Shown piece by piece: positions 20,265-43,500 of a stretch of DNA of 64,000 nt (position 1 is its first letter; each line of letters begins with the position of its first letter). Location: contig JAFUIR010000014.1 in assembly GCA_017468395.1 (NCBI GenBank), positions 1-64,000 on the forward strand, in the 5' to 3' direction. Both the position numbers and the translations under genes were made by a program. The notes beneath the pieces were generated by a model. It made no database searches. It was not told the origin of the DNA and saw only the letters and a list, made by a program, of their open reading frames with translations. This stretch comes from Lachnospiraceae bacterium. GTDB lineage: Bacteria > Bacillota > Clostridia > Lachnospirales > Lachnospiraceae.

Positions 20265-20432
20265 ATTAGTAATCGTTACCCTGTGTGTATAGATTCGTTT
20301 GTTCTGTGCAGCCGACCAGGCGGTGGTGTGTTTTTGAAACATGTCATCGCTTTTTTTGGGGGCTCTATTTTGGATGCATGTATACCCTCATTTGAAGATA
20401 TTACAGCAAAAAGAACAAATGTTCTTGAATGA
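20265..20432 (+). other. short open frame of unclear status before the KilA-N gene
   Basis: A 55-codon open stretch between stops that contains FLKHVIAFFGGSILDACIPS. It has no convincing start codon or ribosome binding site and overlaps the first LexA box. It could be the tail of a decayed gene. The rest of the gap from 20140 to 20490 holds only the LexA-type promoter. Confidence 0.2.
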
Positions 20433-20473
20433 AAGGGCGAATTGTGGTATAGTGTATTTAGAACAAATGTTTG
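20412..20473 (+). promoter_or_regulatory. LexA-controlled promoter with two LexA boxes
   Basis: TTGAAT (20425-20430) and TATAGT (20448-20453) are 17 bases apart. A LexA-type box AGAACAAATGTTCT (20412-20425) overlaps the -35 element. A second, AGAACAAATGTTTG (20460-20473), covers the expected transcription start and matches the Bacillus consensus CGAACRNRYGTTYG in 13 of 14 positions. Two boxes flanking the promoter imply tight SOS repression of the KilA-N gene. Confidence 0.8.
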
Positions 20474-20490: not shown

Positions 20491-21294
20491 ATGAGTAGGT
20501 TGATAGTAGATGATGTGGCAATACAGGTAATTAAATTTGAAGAAGAGGATTATATATCGCTTACTGATATGGTAAGGAATATAGAAAATGGAGTTGTTTT
20601 AATTGAAAAATGGCTGCGAAATAAAAATACAATTGAGTTCCTAGGAATATGGGAAGAGTTATATAATGAGCAGTTTGATTATGATGAATACAATAGTATT
20701 ATGAATGAAGCTGGATTAAATCGGTTTGCTATGTCGGTAAAACAATGGGTGGAAAGAACGAATTCAAAAGGGATTATTGCAAAGGCAGGGAGATATGGAG
20801 GAACTTATGCCTATAAAGATATTGCCTTTGAGTTTGCAAGTTGGGTTTCTCCTAAATTTAAATTATATTTGATAAAAGAGTTTGAAAGGTTAAAGAGAGA
20901 AGAGCAGGAACAACTGGGATGGAATGCAAAACGAGAGTTAGCAAAGATTAATTATAGAATACATACAGATGCAATAAAAGAAAATTTGATTCCAAAACAA
21001 GTGACAAATCAACAAACAGCTATTGTATATGCATCTGAAGCAGATGTTTTGAATGTTGCGTTATTCGGAAAAACAGCAAAAGAATGGCGAGAACGGAATG
21101 CTGAGAAAAGGGGAAACATTAGAGACTATGCATCTATAAATGAGTTGATATGTCTGTCTAATTTGGAAAGTTTAAATGCTGTCTTAATTGAAGAGGGCAT
21201 TTCCCAGAAAGAACGTTTAGTAAAGTTAAATGAGATTGCAATACATCAGATGATTATATTGGAAGAAAAGGCGGAGCATTTGTATTTGAAATAA
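20491..21294 (+). CDS. KilA-N domain protein, SOS-controlled
   Basis: A 267-residue protein with an N-terminal KilA-N domain. The hallmark segment AGRYGGTYAYKDIAFEFASW near residues 96-115 is followed by SPKFKLYLIKEFERLK. KilA-N domains bind nucleic acid and are common in phage antirepressors and in stand-alone bacterial proteins. The C-terminal half is helical and charged, without a known catalytic motif. It has GGAGGTTT upstream and the double LexA box. No phage structural or integrase genes are nearby, so this may be a relic or a domesticated regulator. Confidence 0.88.
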   Translation: MSRLIVDDVAIQVIKFEEEDYISLTDMVRNIENGVVLIEKWLRNKNTIEFLGIWEELYNEQFDYDEYNSIMNEAGLNRFAMSVKQWVERTNSKGIIAKAGRYGGTYAYKDIAFEFASWVSPKFKLYLIKEFERLKREEQEQLGWNAKRELAKINYRIHTDAIKENLIPKQVTNQQTAIVYASEADVLNVALFGKTAKEWRERNAEKRGNIRDYASINELICLSNLESLNAVLIEEGISQKERLVKLNEIAIHQMIILEEKAEHLYLK

Positions 21295-35273: not shown

Positions 35274-35343
35274 AGGTTTTTCTGTCTTTTTTGTTGACTC
35301 CATAGTATAATATACGGGAGAAACTGACAAGGTGGGGTTAGGT

Positions 35344-36213
35344 ATGCATTTTGTAGATGTGAAGGGCATTTTATCAGCCCAAAACGGCATGAATTTATAT
35401 CGGGGCTGTACTCATGGCTGTATTTACTGTGACAGCAGAAGCAAGTGCTATCAGATACTCCATGATTTTGAAGACATTGAAGTGAAACAAAATGCGCCAC
35501 AACTTTTGGAGCAGGCGCTTCGGTCAAAGCGTAAGAAGTGCATGATTGGGACCGGCTCCATGTGTGATCCTTACATGCACTGCGAGGAGAAGTTAGGACT
35601 CACAAGGCGCTGTCTGGAACTGATTGACCGGTATGGTTTTGGACTCGCCATCCAGACGAAGTCGGACCGGATACTCAGGGATTTAGATTTGCTGAAAAGC
35701 ATTAATGAAAAGTCAAAATGCGTGGTACAGATAACACTTACCACCTTCGATGAGGATTTGTGCCGCATTGTGGAGCCAAATGTGTGCACCACAGCAAGGC
35801 GTTTTGAAGTACTGGAAATACTGCGGGATAACGGGATTCCCACTGTGGTCTGGCTTTCGCCCATTTTACCCTTTATCAACGATACCAAGGAAAATTTAGA
35901 GGGCATTTTGGATTACTGCATCCGTGCCAAAGTAAAGGGAATCATTTGCTTTGGAATGGGCATGACCCTTCGGGAAGGTGACAGAGAATATTATTACGAA
36001 GCCCTGGAAAAGCATTTTCCCGGACTAAGGCAAAAATATCATCAAAAATATGGCTATGCCTACGAGATTGTCAGCGATAATAGTCAGGAACTGATGAAGA
36101 TTTTTTATAAGAGGTGCAGGGAAAATGGCATTATGTGTAAAGCGGATGAGGTGTTTTCCTATCTGCATGAGTTTCCGGAAAATAAGGGGTATGAGCAGAT
36201 GAGTTTGTTTTAG
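35344..36213 (+). CDS. radical SAM protein of the Rv2578c / spore photoproduct lyase-like group
   Basis: A 289-residue radical SAM enzyme with the canonical C-x3-C-x2-C cluster in YRGCTHGCIYCDSRS. The segment GTGSMCDPYMHCEEKLGLTR is typical of the Rv2578c-like group (related to the SplB fold). The function of this group is not established. The ATG preceded by AAGGTGG was chosen over the in-frame start at 35332. A promoter could not be assigned: TTGACT at 35294 and TATAAT at 35306 are too close to be a pair. Confidence 0.85.
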   Translation: MHFVDVKGILSAQNGMNLYRGCTHGCIYCDSRSKCYQILHDFEDIEVKQNAPQLLEQALRSKRKKCMIGTGSMCDPYMHCEEKLGLTRRCLELIDRYGFGLAIQTKSDRILRDLDLLKSINEKSKCVVQITLTTFDEDLCRIVEPNVCTTARRFEVLEILRDNGIPTVVWLSPILPFINDTKENLEGILDYCIRAKVKGIICFGMGMTLREGDREYYYEALEKHFPGLRQKYHQKYGYAYEIVSDNSQELMKIFYKRCRENGIMCKADEVFSYLHEFPENKGYEQMSLF

Positions 36214-39313: not shown

Positions 39314-39342
39314 TTGTAAATCGAACAAATGTTTGCTAAAAT
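39314..39342 (+). promoter_or_regulatory. LexA-controlled promoter of rarA2 and the GTPase-NYN gene
   Basis: TTGTAA (39314-39319) and TAAAAT (39337-39342) are 17 bases apart. The spacer contains CGAACAAATGTTTG (39322-39335), a full match to the Bacillus LexA/DinR consensus CGAACRNRYGTTYG. LexA bound here would block RNA polymerase, so the operon should be induced by DNA damage. Confidence 0.88.
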
Positions 39343-39399
39343 GATTGTGTGGACAGTGAGTAACAATTGCAAACGCAGAGATAAACAGGAGAGTCGGAT

Positions 39400-40722
39400 T
39401 TGGAACAGATGTCGTTATTTGATTACCGCGGGGACAATGGTCCCCTGGCCAGCAGACTGCGTCCTACGGATTTAGAAGGTTATGTAGGTCAGAAACATTT
39501 GCTGGGAGAAGGAAAAATATTGCGTCAACTCATAGAGCGGGACCAAGTGTCCTCTATGATTTTCTGGGGACCGCCGGGGGTGGGCAAGACCACTTTGGCC
39601 AGAATTATTGCGGGCAAAACCAAGGCTGATTTTGTGGATTTTAGCGCAGTTACCAGCGGTATCAAGGAAATAAAAGAAGTGATGGCCCAGGCGGAGCAAA
39701 GCCGCCATATGGGGAGACGCACCGTTATGTTTGTAGACGAGATACACCGTTTTAACAAGGCGCAGCAGGACGCCTTTCTTCCTTTTGTGGAAAAAGGGAG
39801 TATTGTGCTTATTGGAGCCACCACGGAAAACCCTTCCTTTGAAATAAATGGGGCGCTTCTTTCCAGGTGCAGGGTGTTTGTGTTAAAGCCGCTGGGGGAG
39901 GAAGATCTTACGGAACTTCTGCAAAATGCCCTGAAAAATCCCGCAGGGTACGGTGGGCAGGATATTAATATTACGGCAGACCAACTCAGTGCCATTGCAA
40001 GTTTTGCAAACGGGGATGCCAGAACTGCTTTAAATGTGCTTGAGATGGCAGTTTTAAATGGGGAAATCAGTTTGGACGGTATCACTGTGACAAATGAAGG
40101 TTTGGAGCAATGTATTACCAAGAAATCTCTGTTATATGATAAAAAGGGCGAGGAACATTATAATATTATTTCCGCATTACATAAATCCATGAGAAACAGC
40201 GACCCGGATGCGGCTATTTATTGGCTGATGAGGATGCTGGAGGGCGGAGAGAATCCGCTTTATGTGGCAAGGCGGTTAGTACGTTTTGCCAGTGAGGATA
40301 TCGGTATGGCGGACAGTCAGGCATTGCAGGTGGCAGTGGCTGCTTATCAGGCATGTCATTTTAACGGAATGCCAGAATGTGATGTGAATTTGGTGCATGC
40401 GGTGGTGTATTTGTCCATGGCGCCCAAGTCAAACAGTTTATATGTTGCTTGCGAGCATTGTAAAGAGGATATCCGCACGAAATCTGCTGAGCCTGTGCCC
40501 ATGAATCTGCGCAATGCGGTAACGGATTTGATGAAAGAACTTCATTATGGTGACGGGTACGTTTATGCCCATGATACCAAGGAAAAGGTGGCACGGATGC
40601 AGTGCATGCCGGATTCCATGAAGGATACCATATATTACAGACCGGGGCAGGCAGGAAAGGAAGCGGAGACTGCCGAGAAATTGGAGCAAATCCGCAAATG
40701 GAAGCAGGATGTACAGGAGTAA
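39400..40722 (+). CDS. replication-associated recombination protein A (second copy, SOS-type)
   Basis: A 440-residue RarA/MgsA-family AAA+ ATPase and paralogue of the protein at 1650-2987. Walker A is GPPGVGKTT (about residues 57-65), Walker B is MFVDEIHRFNK, and GATTENPSFEINGALLSRC and YLSMAPKSNSLY complete the family pattern. It starts at TTG with CAGGAGAG upstream, giving the common family N-terminus MEQMSLFDY; an ATG at 39409 is possible. It is the first gene behind the LexA box. RarA proteins act at blocked forks, so SOS control is biologically sensible. Confidence 0.9.
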   Translation: MEQMSLFDYRGDNGPLASRLRPTDLEGYVGQKHLLGEGKILRQLIERDQVSSMIFWGPPGVGKTTLARIIAGKTKADFVDFSAVTSGIKEIKEVMAQAEQSRHMGRRTVMFVDEIHRFNKAQQDAFLPFVEKGSIVLIGATTENPSFEINGALLSRCRVFVLKPLGEEDLTELLQNALKNPAGYGGQDINITADQLSAIASFANGDARTALNVLEMAVLNGEISLDGITVTNEGLEQCITKKSLLYDKKGEEHYNIISALHKSMRNSDPDAAIYWLMRMLEGGENPLYVARRLVRFASEDIGMADSQALQVAVAAYQACHFNGMPECDVNLVHAVVYLSMAPKSNSLYVACEHCKEDIRTKSAEPVPMNLRNAVTDLMKELHYGDGYVYAHDTKEKVARMQCMPDSMKDTIYYRPGQAGKEAETAEKLEQIRKWKQDVQE

Positions 40723-40758
40723 TGGCCGGATGCCTGCTGTGAAAGGATAGACAAGAAA

Positions 40759-43500
40759 ATGCAGAAAATTGTGGCGGGGATTCTGGCGCATGTGGATGCG
40801 GGCAAAACCACCCTTTCTGAGGCTATGCTTTATGAAAGCGGTGCCATTCGCAAGATGGGGCGGGTGGATAACCGGGATGCCTTTTTGGATACTTATGAAG
40901 TAGAACGGAATAGAGGAATTACGGTGTTTTCCAAACAGGCAGTATTTACCCTTCCTGACGTGCAGATTACCCTTTTGGATACTCCGGGGCATGTGGATTT
41001 TTCCGCAGAGATGGAAAGGACTTTGCAAGTACTGGACTATGCGGTTTTGGTAATCAGCGGTGCAGACGGTGTGCAGGGACATACCCGTACTTTGTGGAGA
41101 CTCCTTAACCGATACCGGATACCTGTCTTTTTGTTTATAAATAAAATGGATCAGCCCGGTACTGACAGGGAAGCCCTGATGCGGGAACTGAAGGAAAATT
41201 TATCGGGAAATTGTGTGGATTTTACAAAGATCGGCAAAGCGCAGTGGGGCGGTGACATACCGGAAGAAATTGCAGACGAACTTGCCATGTGCAGTGAGGC
41301 AGCGTTAGAGCAGTTTCTGGAAAGCGGAACCATAGAATTATCACTGATTAAGCAAATGATAAAGACAAGGCAGACTTTCCCCTGCTTTTTTGGCAGTGCG
41401 CTGAAAATGGAAGGGGTAAAGGAATTTATGGAGGGAGTGGAAACTTATGCGATTCCCTCTGATTATAGTGCGGATTTCGGAGCCAGGGTTTTTAAAATAT
41501 CAAGAGATGCCCAAGGCAACCGCCTGACTTATATGAAAATTACAGGCGGCGTATTAAAAGCCAGAGATGTGCTGAAAGGGACTTACAGAAATGCCGATGG
41601 CGACTTGGAAGAGTGGGAAGAGAAAGTCAACCAGATCCGAATTTACTCAGGCGAGAAGTTTGAGGCGGTCAGTGAAGTGGGCGCAGGCAGTGTCTGTGCG
41701 GTGACAGGCCTTGAAAAGACCAGACCGGGGGAAGGTCTTGGAATAGAAAAGGAGGAGGTACTGCCTCTTTTGGAGCCGGTTTTGAATTACCGGATTATTT
41801 TGCCGGAAGAAATAGATGCAGCGGTAATGCTACCGAAACTGCGGGAAATTGAGGAAGAAGAACCACAACTTCAAATCGAGTGGAATGAAAAATTGCAGGA
41901 AATCCATGCAAAGGTCATGGGGGAAGTGCAAATAGAAATATTGCAAGGCGAGATTTTCGACCGATTTGGCGTGAATGTAACCTTTGGCAGCGGAAATATT
42001 GTTTATAAAGAAACCATTGCAGATGTGGTGGAGGGTGTGGGACATTTTGAACCCCTCAGGCACTATGCAGAGGTTCATTTGATTATGGAGCCCTTGGAGC
42101 GGGGGAGCGGCTTACAGTTTGAATCGGCAGTCAGCGAGGATGAACTGGACAGGAACTGGCAGAGGCTGATACTGACTCATTTAGAAGAAAAACAGCACAA
42201 GGGCGTATTGACCGGTTCGGATATCACGGACATGAAGATTACCCTTGCAGCGGGACGTGCCCATCTGAAACATACAGAAGGCGGAGATTTCAGGCAGTCC
42301 ACTTACCGGGCTGTGAGACAGGGATTGATGCAGGCAAGGTCTGTTTTGCTTGAGCCTTACTATGAGTTTCGCATGGAATTGCCGGAGAGGTATATCGGCA
42401 GGGCAATGACGGATGTGGAGCGTCTTTTCGGGAAATGCGAGCTGACTTCCAGCGTGGATGGTATGGCAGTTCTTTGCGGAAAAGGACCTGTGCAAACCAT
42501 GTGGAATTACCAGAAAGAAGTGACCGCTTATACCAGAGGCGAGGGACACTTTTTTGGGGAACTCGGAGGATATGAACCCTGTCATAATACTGAGGAAGTT
42601 TTGGAGCAGATTGGCTACGACTGTGACAGTGACATGAGTAATCCTTCCGGTTCCGTATTCTGCGCCCATGGTGCGGGTTTTGTGGTTCCGTGGGATGAGG
42701 TGCATGATTATATGCATCTGGAAAAGCGGCTGGGTATGCGCGGAAGTAAATGGACCAAGTATGGAATTTTGACCGGAGAAGAAAGCAGCGAAGGTGCATA
42801 TATTACCATGCCTGATGAAATTGATGCAAACTATGCCAGACGCCCGGCGCCGGTTAATCCCAAAAGTCAGGAAATCTGGCTGGGCACGGAAGAAATAGAT
42901 GCCATTTTAGACAGAACTTACAATGCAAACCGCCGGGAAAATGAACGTAACAATAAGTGGGCAAAGACTAAGGCGGCGCCCCAGTTGCCTTCTGTCAGAA
43001 CTTACAGTCCTACGGTAAAAAAGCCGCAGTACCTGCTGGTAGACGGTTACAACATCATTTTTGCATGGGATGACTTAAAAGAACTTGCGAATGTTACCAT
43101 TGATGGCGCGAGAGGTAAACTGTTGGATATTCTCTGCAACTATCAGGGCATCAAAAATTGTGAACTGATTGTGGTGTTTGATGCTTACAGGGTGCAGGGA
43201 CATCAAACGGAAATTTTGGACTATCACAACATTCATGTGGTTTATACCAAGGAAGCAGAAACCGCAGACCAGTATATTGAAAAGTTTGCCCACGAAAACG
43301 GCAGAAAATATGATGTGACAGTGGCAACTTCTGATGGCCTGGAGCAGATTATCATCAGAGGACAAGGCTGCCGCCTCCTATCCGCTAGGGAACTGCGGGA
43401 AGAAATAGACCGGGTGGAAAATACCGTACAAAAGGATTATCTGGAAAGACAGGTAAAAGGTAAAAATCTGCTCGGCGAAAGCATGCCTAAGATGAATTAG
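40759..43500 (+). CDS. Tet/EF-G-like ribosomal GTPase fused to a Rae1-like NYN ribonuclease domain
   Basis: A 913-residue fusion. Residues 1 to about 690 form a translation GTPase of the ribosomal-protection (TetM/TetO) group: G1 AHVDAGKTTL, G2 NRGIT, G3 DTPGH (74-78), G4 NKMD (128-131), then EF-G-like domains. The domain IV loop reads HTEGGDFRQST, unlike the loop I recall for true TetM proteins. After a linker, residues 755-880 match YacP/Rae1: LLVDGYNIIFAW, VVFDAYRVQG, ETADQYIE and VATSDGLEQ, keeping the acidic active-site residues. Rae1 cleaves mRNA in the ribosomal A site. It lies 36 bases after SOS-type rarA with no terminator between. Confidence 0.88.
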   Translation: MQKIVAGILAHVDAGKTTLSEAMLYESGAIRKMGRVDNRDAFLDTYEVERNRGITVFSKQAVFTLPDVQITLLDTPGHVDFSAEMERTLQVLDYAVLVISGADGVQGHTRTLWRLLNRYRIPVFLFINKMDQPGTDREALMRELKENLSGNCVDFTKIGKAQWGGDIPEEIADELAMCSEAALEQFLESGTIELSLIKQMIKTRQTFPCFFGSALKMEGVKEFMEGVETYAIPSDYSADFGARVFKISRDAQGNRLTYMKITGGVLKARDVLKGTYRNADGDLEEWEEKVNQIRIYSGEKFEAVSEVGAGSVCAVTGLEKTRPGEGLGIEKEEVLPLLEPVLNYRIILPEEIDAAVMLPKLREIEEEEPQLQIEWNEKLQEIHAKVMGEVQIEILQGEIFDRFGVNVTFGSGNIVYKETIADVVEGVGHFEPLRHYAEVHLIMEPLERGSGLQFESAVSEDELDRNWQRLILTHLEEKQHKGVLTGSDITDMKITLAAGRAHLKHTEGGDFRQSTYRAVRQGLMQARSVLLEPYYEFRMELPERYIGRAMTDVERLFGKCELTSSVDGMAVLCGKGPVQTMWNYQKEVTAYTRGEGHFFGELGGYEPCHNTEEVLEQIGYDCDSDMSNPSGSVFCAHGAGFVVPWDEVHDYMHLEKRLGMRGSKWTKYGILTGEESSEGAYITMPDEIDANYARRPAPVNPKSQEIWLGTEEIDAILDRTYNANRRENERNNKWAKTKAAPQLPSVRTYSPTVKKPQYLLVDGYNIIFAWDDLKELANVTIDGARGKLLDILCNYQGIKNCELIVVFDAYRVQGHQTEILDYHNIHVVYTKEAETADQYIEKFAHENGRKYDVTVATSDGLEQIIIRGQGCRLLSARELREEIDRVENTVQKDYLERQVKGKNLLGESMPKMN

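Follow-up and report, generated by a model that had tools for sequence, protein, structure and literature searches.

A second RarA gene with a LexA-type promoter box, and the GTPase–Rae1 fusion gene behind it, in a Lachnospiraceae genome

The DNA considered here, hereafter the window, is a stretch of 64,000 nucleotides (nt) from the draft genome of a Lachnospiraceae bacterium (GenBank assembly GCA_017468395.1, contig JAFUIR010000014.1, positions 1 to 64,000 of the forward strand), which we call the source genome. It carries a second gene for the AAA+ ATPase RarA, here named rarA2, preceded by a promoter whose spacer holds a complete LexA-type box and followed, after a short gap, by a gene that joins an EF-G/Tet-type translational GTPase to a Rae1-type nuclease, here named the fusion gene. 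The most probable reading, to our minds, is that rarA2 is a true SOS gene and the fusion gene a recently acquired downstream passenger, with no dedicated function for the two genes together. LexA bound to the box between the -35 and -10 elements would block RNA polymerase, DNA damage would lead to LexA cleavage and hence to expression of rarA2, and RarA2, a clamp-loader-like AAA+ ATPase with a clamp-type motif, would act at stalled forks or gaps. The fusion gene, which encodes the Rae1-type endonuclease and EF-G-like GTPase of its clade, would have been placed behind rarA2 by a lineage-specific rearrangement; it would probably be read through from the rarA2 SOS promoter, and its product may act as an A-site nuclease.

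The LexA-type box before rarA2

The box CGAACAAATGTTTG sits wholly within the 17-nt spacer of the rarA2 promoter (Table 1), just as an earlier note made from the sequence of the window had described it, and the -10 element ends 57 nt before the rarA2 start. It is the sole exact match to CGAACN4GTTYG in the window; with one mismatch allowed there are five matches against 4.81 expected from shuffling, which is no signal. Scored on a matrix built from the boxes near lexA starts in relatives, which were picked by core match so that the matrix leans towards that core, the box reaches 20.8 bits and conforms to the motif of the clade. The overlap of operator and promoter is that of the LexA (DinR) SOS regulon of Firmicutes and Clostridia, where GAACN4GTTY operators overlap sigma-A-type promoters, and both recA and dinB of the source genome carry such boxes. 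Specifically, the dinB promoter (TTTACA-17-TATAAT) has its box in the spacer, in the same layout as that of rarA2. We consider it very likely that the box before rarA2 is functional.

Table 1. Coordinates of the rarA2 promoter, the two genes behind it and rarA1 within the window.
Feature	Position	Strand	Basis or remark
-35 element TTGTAA	39314-39319	+	sequence reading, promoter scan
Promoter spacer, 17 nt	39320-39336	+	holds the whole LexA-type box
LexA-type box CGAACAAATGTTTG	39322-39335	+	2 nt past -35, 1 nt short of -10
-10 element TAAAAT	39337-39342	+	sequence reading, promoter scan
rarA2, RarA/MgsA family AAA+ ATPase paralogue, 440 residues, TTG start	39400-40722	+	
QMSLF, RarA2 residues 3-7, candidate clamp-binding motif	39406-39420	+	
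Intergenic spacer, 36 nt	40723-40758	+	no terminator
Shine-Dalgarno-like AAAGGA	40742-40747	+	within the 36-nt spacer
Translational GTPase–Rae1 fusion gene, 913 residues	40759-43500	+	profile and structure matches
NYN_YacP (Rae1-type) nuclease domain, residues 759-907	43033-43479	+	Pfam 5.1e-51
rarA1, other rarA copy of the source genome	1650-2987	+	

Among relatives, a strong box (at least 16 bits) is found in 9 of 115 distinct rarA2 upstream regions, where base shuffling predicts 0.10 (duplicates between collections were removed, and 115 of the 116 distinct regions were long enough to score). Six of these nine orthologues have the box 2–3 nt after the -35 element in a 17-nt spacer, five of them exactly as in the window and one shifted by 1 nt, and in the other three it lies elsewhere. 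The nearest RarA2 relative, from genome G025 (80% identical over 216 residues), is encoded behind the same SOS-type promoter layout. Fourteen further rarA2 loci, some of them on contigs that also hold named loci, were judged by a simple core test, with a box in one (L319) and none in the other 13. No upstream region of a rarA1 gene (0 of 18) or of a related GTPase gene (0 of 60) in the relatives reaches even 10 bits. The boxed rarA2 genes are scattered, with at least seven gains or losses for nine tips in a quick rarA tree (77 of 135 rows kept; one rarA2 cut by a contig end, L169, left out). Control of rarA2 by LexA thus looks real in several lineages and far from universal; the proposal that it is LexA-controlled, already made in the earlier note, is well supported because of the placement of the boxes and the orthologues that share the layout.

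The number of sites in the genome carries no signal of its own. Exact CGAACN4GTTYG sites number four in the 2.6-Mb draft, against eight (6 + 2) for a backwards-pattern control, and the wider pattern VGAACRNNYGTTYK gives 18 strand matches, amounting to 12 sites, against 31 for its backwards control, which is no over-representation. Site counts were therefore rejected as proof of LexA boxes, and the box was judged instead by placement and orthologues. Seven of the 12 wider sites stand no more than 100 nt before a gene, namely recA (two sites), a TIGR03916 DNA-repair radical-SAM gene (two), dinB, a UvrD-like helicase gene and rarA2, and another two are found ahead of a KilA-N gene in the window. 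Of the remaining three, one precedes a gene of unknown kind by about 160 nt, another falls within a reading frame and the third has no clear gene close by.

RarA2 and the GTPase–nuclease fusion

RarA2 matches the Pfam families MgsA_C, AAA_assoc_2 and AAA, all above their cut-offs, and its top structure match is 3pvs, Replication-associated recombination protein A (E 2.4e-126), so that in domains and in best structural relative it is a member of the RarA/MgsA/YrvN family. It is a second RarA, as first proposed from the window alone; the product of the other copy, rarA1 (Table 1), is 46% identical to it. Orthologues of RarA2, 59–80% identical, occur by a hand-compiled list in 44 of the 98 other genomes, 41 of the same GTDB family, and 37 of these 44 also have a RarA1 match at about 44–47% identity. 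Within the RarA/MgsA/YrvN family, RarA2 stands apart as a second paralogue whose gene has a LexA box and whose clamp-type N-terminus, with Q3 and F7, is invariant. Its residues QMSLF fit QL[SD]LF, which we take to be the beta-clamp-binding consensus. Q3 and F7 are present in all 117 RarA2 rows kept out of 122 (those whose alignment starts at residue 1–3, with duplicates, 6 of 122, left in), mostly with M or L, S or T, and L between them, and the residues that follow are variable. Three of the five dropped rows have the motif further upstream, two of them on the same contig, and two (family f19) are without it. For 80 of the 122 rows the source was a scan with the peptide EQMSLFDY among its six seeds; in the 42 found without that peptide, Q3 and F7 are present in all 38 rows kept. 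The clamp-type motif is found in none of 18 RarA1 proteins, and the eight RarA1 N-termini displayed start (M/T)DLFEY, without the Q. From this pattern we infer that RarA2 may bind the sliding clamp. A similar motif was seen in two other proteins: EQMSLF forms the C-terminus of a radical-SAM protein in the window (35332-36213), and RQISLFDD lies near the C-terminal end of the SOS-boxed TIGR03916 protein (L004, 1606-2955).

The fusion protein consists of EF-G/Tet-type GTPase domains (residues about 6–610), a linker and a C-terminal NYN_YacP nuclease. Its nuclease domain matches the YacP structures 5mq8/5mq9 (E 1.4e-25) and retains the acidic motifs in the alignment, as in Rae1/YacP of Bacillus subtilis. 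The B. subtilis protein is stand-alone, whereas here a translational GTPase carries the domain at its C-terminus, in what is the only NYN_YacP match of the source genome. In the available sections of one study, B. subtilis Rae1 is described as a ribosome-dependent A-site endoribonuclease that cleaves mRNA (PMC6613710). NYN_YacP occurs in 84 of 99 genomes, the source included, with 61 GTPase-fused (some of them cut by contig ends), 21 stand-alone and two too broken to tell, in genome lists compiled by hand. Among same-genus genomes it is present in 54 of 60, fused in 52 and undecided in two. There are two fusion-type matches in each of two genomes (G008, G054), and a third (G080) has a second match of 26 residues. 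None of the 99 genomes has a fused and a stand-alone NYN_YacP together, and because genomes have the one or the other and never both, this distribution argues that Rae1 works with, and is here fused to, an EF-G-like GTPase.

The 14 fusions form one clade (support 100/99) in a tree of 29 GTPase rows; their neighbours are unfused GTPases of families in which Rae1, if found at all, has its own gene (two rows of this tree are identical, L070 and L359 were left out for want of a usable protein, and the fusions were trimmed at residue 760). A conserved tail motif, GSVFCAHGAGFVVPW, lies at fusion residues about 630–646 (about 42646-42696 of the window); it occurs in the fused and, in weaker form, in the unfused GTPases of the clade, and is absent from the Tet and EF-G rows.

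Gene neighbourhoods and competing explanations

The two genes are not a conserved pair. None of 60 related GTPase loci has a rarA match; 54 of these loci are fused and six unfused (L090-L094 and L097), and they are a selection from which matches at contig starts or broken matches were mostly left out and in which the upstream DNA spans 2.8–3.9 kb, except in L050 (989 nt) and L053 (129 nt). The same holds for four additional fusion loci (L313, L315-L317), and in the closest fusion relative found (L316, genome G106, 71% identical) another gene stands upstream. No GTPase–NYN match was found in 42 rarA2 loci, nor around 80 named rarA2 genes, where the search reached up to 6 kb; the DNA covered downstream is 6 kb for most of the 80 and falls to 2–221 nt in L295 and L292. 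None of 40 genomes with both genes, as listed by hand, has both on one contig, and a DNA search of 138 same-genus genomes gave no joint match beyond the source genome among the matches listed. No general conserved neighbour of either rarA2 or the fusion gene was found, and the neighbours of rarA2 vary widely among genomes. The fusion gene of G025 and that of G106 are each directly followed by a TrkH gene, which in the window lies about 4 kb further on; because TrkH is kept downstream of the fusion gene in all three genomes, rarA2 seems to have been inserted upstream of it in the lineage of the window. The earlier note had proposed a functional pairing and a search of Clostridia genomes for the same neighbourhood; the genes stand apart in every readable relative, their adjacency is not conserved and none of the 60 related GTPase genes shows its own LexA box, so that a dedicated SOS system of fork repair and A-site cleavage is not supported by these comparisons.

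Within the window itself the genes are closely set. A terminator scan found no plus-strand site between rarA2 and the fusion gene, and the RNA of 40680-40790 is predicted to fold no better than its shuffles (z 0.19), in agreement with the original reading of the 36-nt gap as free of a terminator. It is plausible that the fusion gene is co-transcribed with rarA2.

Several observations weigh against reading rarA2 as an SOS gene with a passenger. A strong box is absent from 106 of the 115 rarA2 upstream regions, and lexA itself was not found in the source draft genome, either with Pfam PF01726 (best score 16.2 bits) or when the LexA protein of a relative was used as query, although the latter empty result, having no positive control, shows nothing. 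A promoter-like ATGATA-17-TATAAT lies within rarA2 (40136-40164), about 600 nt upstream of the fusion gene. Separate contigs in fragmented drafts do not alone exclude adjacency; in G025, rarA2 runs off a contig end and the fusion gene begins at the first bases of another contig, and the pair may be shared with that genome. The internal site might be the main promoter of the fusion gene, which would leave rarA2 under SOS control and the fusion gene not meaningfully damage-inducible, and in relatives the fusion gene is indeed preceded by neither rarA nor a LexA box; however, such sites are common by chance (15 found against 9.6 expected in the region) and this one is far from the gene, and we think such an arrangement unlikely. 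A dedicated SOS operon, as originally proposed, would co-induce RarA2 and a GTPase-delivered A-site nuclease and couple fork repair to the clearing of ribosomes or mRNA, for example in replication–transcription–translation conflicts. It would account for the short gap without a terminator behind an SOS-type promoter, for a second gene that is the genome's only NYN_YacP match and for a pair that may be common to G025, whose rarA2 promoter layout matches, but no readable relative shows the pairing, a LexA box precedes none of the related GTPase genes and rarA2 has widely differing neighbours, which makes it distinctly improbable. That the SOS promoter has captured the sole NYN_YacP nuclease, GTPase-fused, in the source lineage and possibly in G025 is rather unlikely; if true, DNA damage would induce clamp-bound RarA and, with it, A-site mRNA cleavage by a GTPase-delivered nuclease, and the SOS response would be wired directly to translation quality control.

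Two further explanations concern the box and the fusion protein separately. The box might be a relic or a chance match in a lineage that has lost LexA, with nothing under SOS control, as the failure to find lexA and the site numbers, which do not exceed those of the backwards-pattern control, would allow. Yet boxes persist before recA, dinB and other genes, and the rarA2 layout is common to orthologues. A LexA match above the Pfam cut-off is present in 67 of 99 genomes, and a recombinase gene that adjoins lexA in 7 of 18 same-genus loci is also missing from the source genome, where only proteins 27–31% identical to it are present. Because recA still has two boxes and this neighbour is missing as well, an assembly gap in the draft, which is 92.7% complete, is the likeliest reason for the missing lexA, though not a proven one, and a relic box we regard as very improbable. 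The fusion might also be a tetracycline-protection protein that cuts RNA as well, as put forward for clostridial Tet–NYN proteins (PMC4342817). It is homologous to TetO and TetM, but the part that the earlier note labelled 'Tet-like' does not have the marks of a tetracycline-protection protein: the fusion scores 431.1 bits against the NCBIfam tet_protect cut-off of 775, and the tip loop of its domain IV reads LKHTE in place of the SPVST of TetM and TetO. A second protein of the same genome (L350), by contrast, passes tetracycline-protection cut-offs (834.5 against 775; 1283.5 against 1100), has the SPVST loop and branches away from the fusion clade in the 29-row tree. Moreover, the frequency of NYN_YacP in the genus is unlike that of a sporadic resistance gene, and we give the resistance reading very little credence. 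L350 belongs to the TetM/TetW/TetO/TetS class and is carried on a 4.1-kb contig (C22).

Known systems and further observations

The rarA/MgsA gene is not known to be a standard LexA target. A search of the literature by titles and the starts of abstracts recognized neither a LexA-controlled rarA nor a rarA2/GTPase–NYN pair, which is not proof of absence, and neither appears in the available portions of six articles (PMC4342817, PMC12448304, PMC4234289, PMC6613710, PMC13335488, PMC13220808). In a survey of LexA-controlled genes in Clostridioides difficile, the terms 'rarA' and 'tet' are absent from the main text as available (PMC4234289). The fusion, in contrast, has been published: clostridial Tet–NYN proteins with the same domain fusion were described in 2015 (Atkinson 2015), where the accessible part of the paper reports a YacP-like NYN domain in ten Tet proteins of Clostridiales species and suggests a role in resistance (PMC4342817); the GTPase here is without the SPVST loop. 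The new element is rarA2 as a probable member of the SOS regulon. RarA is described as conserved, with its function at stalled forks unclear, in the available text of PMC12448304. In a clade with two RarA proteins, one bearing a clamp-type motif and, in several lineages, encoded behind an SOS-type promoter, constitutive and damage-induced RarA work could be naturally divided between the two. Damage-induced expression of the Rae1–GTPase fusion may also occur in the source lineage.

The window probably holds a further SOS gene. Two LexA-type boxes (20412-20425 and 20460-20473) end 65 and 17 nt, respectively, before the KilA-N gene at 20491-21294, and we consider it likely that this gene, too, is under SOS control.

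The lexA loci of the same genus (18 loci, among L197-L216) have recurrent features of their own. A tyrosine recombinase is encoded nearby in seven of the 18, and most of them have at least two LexA-like boxes by the lexA start. In 14 of the 18, a small protein with a LysM-like end is encoded near lexA, and by our reading it is YneA-like.

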